Shown here in pieces: positions 2,627-6,110 of a stretch of DNA of 44,216 nt (position 1 is the first letter of the stretch; every line of letters begins with the position of its first letter). The translations under genes were made by a program, and so were the position numbers. Under the pieces are notes generated by a model, which saw only the letters and a list, made by a program, of their open reading frames with translations, searched no databases and had not been told where the DNA came from. The DNA comes from a virus. The stretch covers positions 1 through 44,216 of IMG/VR virus record IMGVR_UViG_3300050821_003291, one strand, 5' to 3'.

Positions 2627-2820
2627 CCGACAGCATTCGCGTCATTCGCGAGACGGCCCTCCGCGATGTGCTGGAATTGGCTCCGCAGCGGATCGTTCGG
2701 CTCCTCCCCGGCCTTAGCAACGAAGTGGTGGACCAGATATTCGGGGCACTGGCCGTCCAAGCCTCCATAGATTTTCACGACAGCCGCGAAGTGCGGGAAT
2801 TTAAGGAGATCGACCCATGA
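2623..2820 (+). CDS. Small helical protein, 65 aa, unknown function
   Basis: Start ATG 2623 overlaps the upstream stop, and the end overlaps the ERF start (ATGA). It is acidic and helical (TDSIRVIRETALRDVLELA, then REVREFKEIDP). It lies directly before the recombination genes. No family is recognised. Confidence 0.7.
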   Translation: MTDSIRVIRETALRDVLELAPQRIVRLLPGLSNEVVDQIFGALAVQASIDFHDSREVREFKEIDP

Positions 2821-3452
2821 ACATGTCAGAGCACATCAACGAGATCGCCACAGCAATAGCGAAGGCCCAAGCGACGCTCGTGAACCCCAGCAAGGACAGC
2901 GAGAACCCCCACTTCAAATCGAAGTACGCGGGCCTCGCCGAAGCCCTTGTCGGCATTCGCAAAGAACTATCAGCCGTGGGGGTGGCGACCATCCAGTCAC
3001 CATGCATCGTTGGCGATATGCAAATCCTTGACACGCGATTGGTCCATTCCAGCGGCCAGTGGATCGGTTGCGAATGGCCGATTGGCCGTGTGGGCTCTAA
3101 GCCCCACGATGTTGGCAGCGGTCTAACCTACGCCCGCCGCTATAGCCTGTTCTCGCTGGTCGGGATCGCTGGGGCGGACGATGACGACGACGGCAACGCC
3201 GCGAGCGGCAAGACGCCTGCTCCCCAGGTCGAGGAGCGTCCGGTGCGGTGCATCTCCGACACGGAACTGTATCTGATCCAGAGCGGCATCGAGGCGTTGA
3301 CCGACAAGAGCATCGAGAAGGTCATTCTTGACCGCTATGGCATTGCGTCCCTGCGCGAGCTGACGAGCGATAAGCTGCACGAGGTCACGAAGGCCATCAA
3401 CGCGCGCTTCGCCAAGCAGGAGGCCGCCTCGAAGAAAATGGCGGCTGAGTGA
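2817..3452 (+). CDS. erf: ERF-family single-strand annealing protein, 211 aa
   Basis: It anneals complementary single strands in phage recombination and circularisation, as P22 Erf does. The N-terminal half carries ERF hallmarks: NPHFKSKYAGLAEALVGIRK near residue 30, GVATIQSP, and the block GSGLTYARRYSLFSLVGIAG followed by the acidic DDDDDGNA. The C-terminal third is a linker and a helical tail ending in KKMAAE. It is coupled by ATGA to the previous gene and directly precedes the exonuclease gene, a standard annealase/exonuclease pair. Confidence 0.93.
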   Translation: MNMSEHINEIATAIAKAQATLVNPSKDSENPHFKSKYAGLAEALVGIRKELSAVGVATIQSPCIVGDMQILDTRLVHSSGQWIGCEWPIGRVGSKPHDVGSGLTYARRYSLFSLVGIAGADDDDDGNAASGKTPAPQVEERPVRCISDTELYLIQSGIEALTDKSIEKVILDRYGIASLRELTSDKLHEVTKAINARFAKQEAASKKMAAE

Positions 3453-4081
3453 TGGAGCAGGGGAGCGCCGAATGGTACGCCGCAAAATGCGGGAAGGTTT
3501 CAGCTTCCCGCATAAACGACGTTATCGCCAAGGGCATAGGGAAAGCGCCTAGTGTCTCCAGGGCCAACTATATGACCGAACTGCTGTGTGAGCGGTTGAC
3601 GGGCATCAACGCAGAGAACTTTGTCTCCGAGCCCATGTTGTGGGGAAAGAAGCACGAAGCTGCCGCACGCGAGGCTTACGCCTTCATTGAAGGCAATGCG
3701 GTTGAGAGGGCTGGCTTCGTCGATCATCCGACCATCGCCATGGCGGGCGCGAGCCCTGATGGGCTGGTCGAGGGTGGCGGCCTCTTGGAGATCAAATGCC
3801 CCAACACCGCGACGCATCTGGATACGATACGTACGGGAGAGGTTCCCCATAAATACATCGCCCAGATACATTGGCAGGCGGCCTGCACGCGGCTCACATG
3901 GTGTGATTTCGTGTCTTTTGACCCTAGGCTAACACCGGAGCTGAGCTACTTCCGCCGTCGGGTCACGATTGACCCCGCCTACGTGATTGAGCTGGAGCTG
4001 GCCGTGATCAATTTCATGGTGGAGCTGAAAACGCAACTCCACGCCCTGCGCGACTATGTGGCCAAGAGGAGGGCGGCGTGA
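3452..4081 (+). CDS. YqaJ/lambda-type exonuclease, 209 aa
   Basis: It is predicted to resect 5' ends and load the ERF protein. PD-(D/E)XK nuclease residues are visible: WGKKHE (E70 region), ASPDG with D103, then LLEIKCP with E113 and K115. An N-terminal GKVSASRIND matches YqaJ recombinases. I chose ATG 3452, which overlaps the upstream TGA as TGATG; a GTG three bases earlier is possible. It ends inside the start of the NinB-like gene. Confidence 0.92.
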   Translation: MEQGSAEWYAAKCGKVSASRINDVIAKGIGKAPSVSRANYMTELLCERLTGINAENFVSEPMLWGKKHEAAAREAYAFIEGNAVERAGFVDHPTIAMAGASPDGLVEGGGLLEIKCPNTATHLDTIRTGEVPHKYIAQIHWQAACTRLTWCDFVSFDPRLTPELSYFRRRVTIDPAYVIELELAVINFMVELKTQLHALRDYVAKRRAA

Positions 4082-4491
4082 AGCAGACCATCGTCCTCTA
4101 CTCGGAGACGCAGCGCAGCCTCGCCAAATTGGGCATCGACATGCTGCCCAAGGACAGCCGCGTGATCATGCAGCCACCTCGCCGCACACTCGACCAAAAC
4201 GCCAAGATGCACGCCATGTTGGGCGATATCCAGAAGCAACACTTCATCGGCGGGTCGCTACGGTCGCTGCGATATTGGAAGGCCGGCTTCATGATCGCGC
4301 TGGGGATCGAGATGGAGGCAGTTCCCACCATCGATGAGGACGGCGTATTCATGCTGCAAGAGCGGGGAACGTCAGACCTCTACGTCAACGAATGCGCGCA
4401 AATGATTGAAATGCTTTACGCGCGCGGCGCGGAATGGGGCATCGTATGGAGCGAGCCCGACAGGTGGAACCATCCACAGAGGAGTGTGTAA
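4078..4491 (+). CDS. ninB: NinB-like recombination protein, 137 aa
   Basis: NinB (lambda Orf) family proteins bind single-stranded DNA and act with recombination mediators. The recognisable core is RTLDQNAKMHAMLGDI near residue 36, followed by a Trp-containing helical region and a C-terminal segment AEWGIVWSEP. The start is GTG 4078, overlapping the exonuclease stop (GTGA). The family member fits the ERF-exonuclease neighbourhood. Confidence 0.88.
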   Translation: MKQTIVLYSETQRSLAKLGIDMLPKDSRVIMQPPRRTLDQNAKMHAMLGDIQKQHFIGGSLRSLRYWKAGFMIALGIEMEAVPTIDEDGVFMLQERGTSDLYVNECAQMIEMLYARGAEWGIVWSEPDRWNHPQRSV

Positions 4492-4760
4492 TGGCTGAGA
4501 GAATGGATTTGGTGACGCCGCGCCAGGACAAAAACGGCAAAACTTGGTGGACGCGCATCGGCGTCGCCTGGGCCATGAATGGCGGCGGATGGCGGCTCAA
4601 TTTCGAGGCTCTGCCGATCCCCAGCAAGAACCGGGACGGCGACTACGAGGTAATGGTCCTCATGCGCGCGCCGTTTGATAGGGATGGCGATCGCCGCAGC
4701 TCTCAGTCCGTCACTAGCGGCCCGCGGTCCACCCACGAGGACGAAGACATTCCTTTTTAG
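4491..4760 (+). CDS. Small protein with an SSB-type acidic tail, 89 aa
   Basis: ATG 4491 overlaps the upstream stop as TAATG. Residues about 10-60 have a beta-rich pattern: KNGKTWWTRIGVAWAMNGGG, then WRLNFEALPI, then YEVMVLMRAP. A short flexible linker (RRSSQSVTSGP) ends in EDEDIPF. That tip is almost identical to the C-terminal tip of bacterial SSB, which recruits replication and repair partners. The body resembles small phage proteins of unknown role and is shorter than a classical OB-fold SSB. A role as a phage ssDNA-binding or SSB-mimic protein is inference from the tail and the recombination context. Confidence 0.7.
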   Translation: MAERMDLVTPRQDKNGKTWWTRIGVAWAMNGGGWRLNFEALPIPSKNRDGDYEVMVLMRAPFDRDGDRRSSQSVTSGPRSTHEDEDIPF

Positions 4761-4779: not shown

Positions 4780-4959
4780 ATGAAAACAATTTGGGTGTTG
4801 ATGGTTTTGCTTGGGCAAAACCATGATTTGCCGAAAGAGGTTAATTCACATCAGGTGCTGGTCATCCTTATGCCCGATGAGGCAACCTGCAAGCAGGTGA
4901 AGCACGTCAATAGCAACGGTGGCACGGGGTTTACCTGCGTGCAGGTTGACCCAGATTGA
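4780..4959 (+). CDS. Small protein with hydrophobic N-terminus, 59 aa
   Basis: ATG 4780 follows a good GAGGAG. The N-terminus MKTIWVLMVLLG is hydrophobic but short, without a clear cleavage site. The body has two cysteines (ATCKQVKHV and GFTCVQVD), as in small periplasmic or membrane-tethered phage proteins. No family is recognised. The next gene begins inside its stop (TTGA). Confidence 0.65.
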   Translation: MKTIWVLMVLLGQNHDLPKEVNSHQVLVILMPDEATCKQVKHVNSNGGTGFTCVQVDPD

Positions 4960-5351
4960 ACCGCCGCGAGTTCTCAAAAGCCCTAAAAGTGGCCATCCGG
5001 AAGCGCGCGACCCGCGATGGCGTGCGCTACTGCGAGCAGATGGGCTGCGGCGCTCAAGCCATGCGCGGAGAGGTGCATCACATACGGCAAGACGCCATGG
5101 AGGTCGACAAGACGCGGAAGCTGACAGCCGCGGACGGGCTTTACCTCTGCCTGCCCTGCCACCGGATCGAGAGCGACCGGCAGGCCGGGGAATTGTCCAA
5201 AGCCCTGGCGCGGGAAGCGGCGCATCACGGGGAGAAGAAGGCACGGCGGCCGATCCCGTCGAGACCCAAGGAAAAGGCCCCAGAGCGGGCGAAGACAGAA
5301 GGGATGAGTGAGATATGGAGAAGATTTCAGCGACCGGCTACAGAGGCGTAA
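4956..5351 (+). CDS. HNH endonuclease-like protein, 131 aa
   Basis: It shows a zinc-supported HNH core: C26 and C31 (YCEQMGCG), H41-H42 in GEVHHIRQDAM, then LTAADGLYLCLPCHR with C65, C68 and H69. These match HNH nucleases that cut DNA. The C-terminus is basic. The start is TTG 4956, overlapping the previous stop, and the 3' end overlaps the AP2 gene by 37 bases. It may be a homing-type or recombination/packaging nuclease. Packaging HNH genes usually sit by the terminase, so an early-region role is more likely. Confidence 0.82.
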   Translation: MNRREFSKALKVAIRKRATRDGVRYCEQMGCGAQAMRGEVHHIRQDAMEVDKTRKLTAADGLYLCLPCHRIESDRQAGELSKALAREAAHHGEKKARRPIPSRPKEKAPERAKTEGMSEIWRRFQRPATEA

Positions 5352-5665: not shown

Positions 5666-5895
5666 CCAACCCGAAGTACATGAGACCGGGGCTAGATTTC
5701 GCGGTGGGCAAGGCCGTCGAGGAGTTGGGGGAGCTGCAAGCAGCCCTCGGCAAGACCCTGAGATGGGGATGGGGAGGCTTCAATCCAGAGCCGGGGTCCG
5801 ATCAGGAGCCCAACGCTTCATGGGTCAGGCGAGAGATCGCAGACGTGCGCGGGGCGATCGACAATCTTCTGTTCAATATGGACGAGGAGCTGTGA
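5662..5895 (+). CDS. MazG-like helical protein, 77 aa
   Basis: ATG 5662 overlaps the previous stop as ATGA. The pattern FAVGKAVEELGELQAALGKT, RWGWGG and VRREIADVRGAIDNLL matches the EExxE/ExxD layout of all-alpha NTP pyrophosphohydrolase (MazG-like) phage proteins. Such enzymes hydrolyse NTPs or possibly alarmones. The protein is short, so activity is uncertain. It is coupled to the next gene by TGATG. Confidence 0.75.
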   Translation: MTNPKYMRPGLDFAVGKAVEELGELQAALGKTLRWGWGGFNPEPGSDQEPNASWVRREIADVRGAIDNLLFNMDEEL

Positions 5896-6110
5896 TGGCC
5901 CACAAGGTCATGAAGGAGCTCATAGCCGTCGCGATTGCGGAGGGAGCGCGGCTCATCGAGGCGCAGCACAGAGGGCACACCCATATCATGATGCTGTTTG
6001 AGGGCCCGGCTGGGCGCTTCCGTGTCCTTGCCCCTAACTCACCCAGCGATATTCGCTATCGGCTCAACTTCCGGAGCGACGTGCGGCGCGGCATGCGGGG
6101 GGCGACGTGA
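5895..6110 (+). CDS. HicA-like small protein, 71 aa
   Basis: The layout is an N-terminal helix (VMKELIAVAIAEGARLIEAQ), then RGHTHIMMLFEGPAGRFRVL, then NSPSDIRYRLNFRSDVRR. It recalls small dsRBD/HicA-like phage proteins, in which a glycine- and histidine-containing strand binds RNA. No HicB partner is adjacent, so a toxin role is not supported. It lies between the MazG-like and HTH genes. Confidence 0.65.
   Translation: MAHKVMKELIAVAIAEGARLIEAQHRGHTHIMMLFEGPAGRFRVLAPNSPSDIRYRLNFRSDVRRGMRGAT

Follow-up and report, generated by a model that had tools for sequence, protein, structure and literature searches.

The window considered here is an entire IMG/VR virus record of 44,216 bases, and the question it raises concerns the fourth gene of a recombination operon: why should a very small protein that ends like a single-stranded DNA-binding protein (SSB) be encoded directly after an ERF annealase, a YqaJ exonuclease and NinB? 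These three genes overlap one another by a few bases (Table 1), and the identities given to them in an earlier, sequence-only reading were borne out by Pfam (PF04404, PF09588, PF05772). That reading also placed an 89-aa ORF with an EDEDIPF end behind them, and translation of the forward strand from 4491 to 4760 does give 89 residues (MAERMDLVTPRQDKNGKTWWTRIGVAWAMNGGGWRLNFEALPIPSKNRDGDYEVMVLMRAPFDRDGDRRSSQSVTSGPRSTHEDEDIPF), terminating in THEDEDIPF and a stop. The gene probably encodes the minimal phage SSB analogue of this operon, with a core that would coat ssDNA and a tip that would dock partners. Phage annealases rely on a few residues at the very end of SSB, and this restricts the hosts in which a recombination system works (RecT; PMC10711431); a phage with its own very small tip-bearing SSB would carry the docking platform along.

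Table 1. Features of the recombination operon and its immediate surroundings in the window.
Feature	Position	Strand	Evidence
ERF single-strand annealing protein	2817..3452	+	PF04404 E 1.1e-18; PHROG 2324 E 8e-35
YqaJ/RecE-like recombination exonuclease	3449..4081	+	PF09588 E 3.1e-25; PHROG 149 E 4e-39
NinB/Orf recombination mediator	4078..4491	+	PF05772 E 6.9e-18; PHROG 72 E 6.7e-17
AGGAG Shine-Dalgarno-like site	4480..4484	+	6 bases 5' of ATG 4491; read directly from sequence
Minimal SSB-like protein, 89 aa (probable)	4491..4760	+	translation; PHROG 18187, AlphaFold2, family alignments, charge calculation
SSB C-terminal-type tip, codons for DEDIPF	4740..4757	+	stop codon 4758-4760; conserved in homologues
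HNH endonuclease-like protein, downstream, same region	4956..5351	+	PHROG 333 E 3.4e-6; no Pfam match at E 0.01

The ATG of the SSB-like gene (4491–4493) shares its first base with the NinB stop codon (TAA, 4489–4491, giving TAATG), and since an AGGAG also lies six bases before it, translational coupling of the two genes is likely. A longer in-frame version from an ATG at 4434 (108 aa) was considered and rejected; the start at 4491 is preferred because of the AGGAG and because relatives begin at the same place, with N-termini such as MTTRYDL and MSKRYDV. The resulting protein consists of a beta core (residues ~1–62), a Ser/Gly-containing linker (~63–82), and the tip EDEDIPF (83–89). By charge calculation the core is basic, with a pI of 9.5, and the tip has a net charge of −4. 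Elsewhere in the window, on the opposite strand, positions 579–1256 encode a 225-aa protein with the DnaA box-binding, C-terminal helix-turn-helix domain of DnaA (PF08299, E 3e-19), beside a RuvC-like Holliday junction resolvase at 1091–1564 (PHROG 1770, E 5e-29).

The SSB of E. coli terminates in DDDIPF, and the window protein shares with bacterial SSBs (PF00436) an acidic D-x-I-P-F tip after a flexible linker, as well as a proposed role as a hub on ssDNA. The sequence-only reading had made its case depend on conservation of the IPF tip in homologues, and conservation was found: an acidic I/V-P-F-type tip is terminal in 28 of 47 non-redundant family members (<90% core identity), against an SSB-type terminus in 2 of 1102 control ORFs from the same loci, and a chance C-terminus was rejected on these counts. 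The associated Fisher p of ~1e-41 is a guide only, because the ORFs are not independent and because relatives were found with alignments that took in the tip region (although the pattern searched for was the FNPAG stretch). Three of the remaining relatives have the tip followed by a short extension, two have near variants, and 14, including the Shewanella/Colwellia type, do not show the pattern, several of these having looser ends (NVPF, MPPF, DTTPF). Between core and tip, the linker varies from relative to relative and is rich in Q, P, and G; the tip is kept across divergent relatives. Within the window, the EDEDIPF-bearing ORF is the only one with an SSB-type tip among 174 ORFs of at least 60 aa.

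Two kinds of departure from the terminal tip can be described. In L009 (5001–5285), L037, L062, L066, L071, and L106, residues continue beyond it (DDIPFMMEWR, DDMPFAPEWRI, DDIPFADPYRGARSLLI, DDDIPFGPRNDPF), and the extension EWR or DPYRGARSLL recurs after the internal tip in some relatives. SSB-Ct pockets usually require a free C-terminal carboxylate; residues past the tip, as in DDIPFADPYRGARSLLI or DDIPFMMEWR, may block access to pockets with this requirement. The Shewanella/Colwellia-type branch (L040, L041, L042, L051, L108) has the core and a Q/G-rich linker with no acidic tip, ending in GGYNNNRG, GGHRS, or similar.

Residues 1–89 of the protein match the full PHROG 18187 profile (1–94 of 94) at E 2.1e-9, and its Pseudomonas phage relatives match at 1e-41 to 1e-47. 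The family is listed with unknown function, and the window protein differs from most of its phage members in having no FNPAG insertion. No match was found in Pfam (E up to 1) or NCBIfam scans, a PDB sequence search gave chance matches only, and the literature searched yielded no paper describing the family; several GenBank records of Pseudomonas phages label relatives as single-stranded DNA-binding protein, without shown evidence. Relatives had to be reached in steps, since direct tblastn with the window protein gave one Microviridae record among phages and no plasmid match. Single-protein scans, with the window protein against viral contigs and with that of L009 against viral and genome contigs, gave no new kin.

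The relatives comprise (a) the protein of a second viral contig, L009, 38% identical to the window protein and with the tip DDIPF; (b) an ORF, un- or partly annotated, that lies in gokushovirus-like Microviridae between the genes for scaffolding/VP3 and the replication initiator; (c) a large set with the FNPAG insertion from Pseudomonas, Bordetella, Shewanella, Cobetia, Microcystis, and uncultured phages; (d) short proteins carried by 155 or more PLSDB plasmids; and (e) two versions of 65–66 aa in ERF loci, L155 (1283–1480) and L158 (1812–2012). The Microviridae ORF is conserved in L002 (2842–3030) and seven further records, unannotated in most, and the two short versions terminate in NGDAPF and NSDTPF, almost without a linker. 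When linkers and tips were removed, hhalign comparison of the cores with the window-type group gave probabilities of 98.7% (microvirus), 97.9% (plasmid), and 94.4% (FNPAG phage), with reversed-sequence controls below 1%. The direct link between the FNPAG phage and plasmid cores is weak (52%), so the joining of these two rests on the window-type group. The gokushovirus-like Microviridae and many plasmids have the core without a tip. Both are elements with ssDNA stages, and the presence of the core there would fit ssDNA binding. Tentatively, and with the chances slightly against it, the family could represent a non-OB ssDNA-binding domain of ~60 residues common to Microviridae, many plasmids, and dsDNA phages, to which a tip was added in the recombination modules of dsDNA phages as a non-homologous replacement for SSB, down to 65–66 residues in L155 and L158 (ending DAPF/DTPF).

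The gene neighborhoods of the relatives were compared. The SSB-like gene is often immediately 3' of annealases, YqaJ exonucleases, or helicases: the order is Bet-exo-SSB-like gene in phage PS-1, ERF-SSB-like gene in phage Shamal, Rad52-SSB-like gene in a Microcystis phage, and exo-SSB-like gene in Shewanella ZP9 and one Pseudomonas phage. ERF-exo-SSB-like gene is the order in L155 and ERF-SSB-like gene that in L158, with overlapping genes. For the 41 representatives in which an upstream ORF was identified (a heuristic choice), the upstream gap is 15 bases or less, or an overlap, in 31; PHROG matches of these 41 ORFs include ~10 exonucleases, six helicases, two Sak4, and one RecT. This fixed position adjoining annealase and exonuclease genes is what would be expected of a recombination accessory factor comparable to Gam, Arf, or an anti-nuclease. 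In such a factor the core would bind the annealase or exonuclease proteins rather than DNA, and the tip would link the complex to host replication forks. Such a role is nevertheless very unlikely, given that the gene also occurs with no recombination gene beside it. In a Bordetella phage it comes after a helicase, and one gene further on is a gene whose annotation is CHC2 zinc finger protein, the domain being of primase type; in Microviridae it adjoins the replication initiator; and on plasmids it is near relaxase/transfer or replication genes. A shared ssDNA lifestyle is a simpler account of this spread. L009 is an exception of another sort, with the SSB-like gene after an HNH/HTH-type gene.

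The doubt expressed in the sequence-only reading, that the body is not a full classical OB domain, agrees with AlphaFold2 models and with profile comparison. The model of the window protein (44 sequences) has strands at residues 4–12, 18–28, 34–38, and 57–59, with pLDDT 84–91 over the first 40 residues; the linker is of low confidence and, as modeled, probably disordered. L111, the best-covered relative (49 sequences), has pLDDT 91–97 over residues 1–70, strands at 4–18, 21–35, 38–44, and 60–64, and no helix, and its strand order is repeated in the window protein model at lower confidence. The window core is unlike bacterial SSB in being only ~60 residues long and in its predicted four-stranded, helix-free form, and PF00436 matches neither this protein (E up to 1) nor anything else in the window. 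Homology to canonical OB-fold SSBs was rejected: in hhalign the core scored 0.4–0.7% probability against those of phages, which aligned with none of four core profiles. Foldseek found no PDB fold match at E 0.001 for the predicted core, and the matches in BFVD are uncharacterised phage proteins. The best VIA-align row was the PUR repeats of PURA (Z 3.4, rmsd 3.5 Å, 46 residues), which is weak and may be chance, although a solved fold may still underlie the core. The PUR repeat is nucleic-acid-binding; a PUR/PC4/Whirly-like fold is not claimed, neither Foldseek nor VIA-align having given a convincing fold.

As to DISPLACEMENT of SSB, none of the 36 virus records that carry the family, among them the window, gave a PF00436 match, against 12 of the 33 comparable ERF records taken as controls (Fisher p 3e-5 on 32 of these, L158 left out). 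The 36 include many Pseudomonas phages close to one another; with ~19–20 non-redundant records p is ~0.002, to be read with the caution that records may be incomplete and that the two sets of phages differ in other ways too. A search of the ERF control records with the A2 model stayed below threshold even for L158, known from the local HMM, and so is not evidence of absence.

These results bear on what the sequence-only reading had left as a choice, a minimal SSB or a decoy. As a decoy or adaptor, the protein would not coat DNA; its tip would titrate or recruit host RecO, PriA, exonuclease I, RecQ, and others, and the core would do no more than tether it to the recombination complex of the phage. 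Linker and tip do strongly resemble those of SSB, a known activity can be assigned, by analogy, to the tip only, and none of the known DNA-binding folds matches the predicted core. Against this, the core is basic and is the most widely shared part, persisting in tip-less form in Microviridae and on plasmids, which makes a tail-only decoy less likely; a fixed place beside annealase and exonuclease is not needed for a decoy, and the same records have no canonical SSB. On balance a decoy is unlikely and is not needed, and the minimal SSB is favored by the conserved tip, the SSB-like layout, the neighborhood, and the lack of a canonical SSB; a point against it is that the core matches no proven ssDNA-binding protein by profile or fold.

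As a minimal SSB the protein might act as follows. The YqaJ exonuclease would resect ends and expose ssDNA, which the basic, four-stranded beta core would coat, probably as an oligomer. The flexible linker would present the SSB-type tip, and this would dock the phage's own ERF annealase and/or Orf (NinB) mediator onto the ssDNA, and possibly host SSB-binding enzymes (PriA, RecO, exonuclease I) as well. We infer the binding of ssDNA by the core, its oligomeric state, and the partners of the tip; the protein would then fill the role taken by a PF00436 SSB in other ERF phages. If the core does bind ssDNA, tailed phages, ssDNA microviruses, and plasmids would share a new non-OB ssDNA-binding module; PHROG 18187 and many genes now listed as “hypothetical protein” would gain a function, and genome editing by recombination would gain a compact part.

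Some known systems invite comparison. The non-classical SSB of phage HK620 (DUF669, PF05037) likewise adjoins an annealase gene and has an SSB-like tail (NDYPPF), and these last six residues are required for Sak4 binding/loading on SSB-coated ssDNA and for its stimulation (PMC5928155); the annealase, Sak4, is however of another type. PF05037 matches neither the window protein (E up to 1) nor anything in the records searched, in a search run without a positive control. Red-beta binds SSB, and in vivo recombination by Red-beta depends on this contact (PMC8303780). SSB is also a partner of YbcN, which binds it via the C-terminal tail of SSB, and of the related Orf, reported to bind with or without that tail (PMC4118853). 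None of these results comes from the window-protein family; they show that a role of the kind proposed does occur in phages. The CcPol-MP small SSBs of SCCmec-type elements are similarly small, beta-rich, ssDNA-binding proteins of mobile elements that are missed by simple sequence search, but have a predicted OB fold and an A-family polymerase partner and belong to Bacillota; the parts of the source consulted describe no conservation of an SSB-type tip (PMC10061031). A phage SSB with an SSB tip is of an already known kind; as far as could be tested, it is the core and its spread that are new.

Small phage SSB families PHROG 18154 and 7364 are also short proteins with an SSB-type tip, but relatives of the window protein match them over the linker and tip only, not the core. 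In L175, positions 5751–6005 beside ERF encode an 84-aa protein that matches PHROG 18154 (single strand DNA binding protein) and ends in DDFGDDIPF. Since it looks unrelated to the window protein, this suggests that several unrelated small cores have gained an SSB tip.
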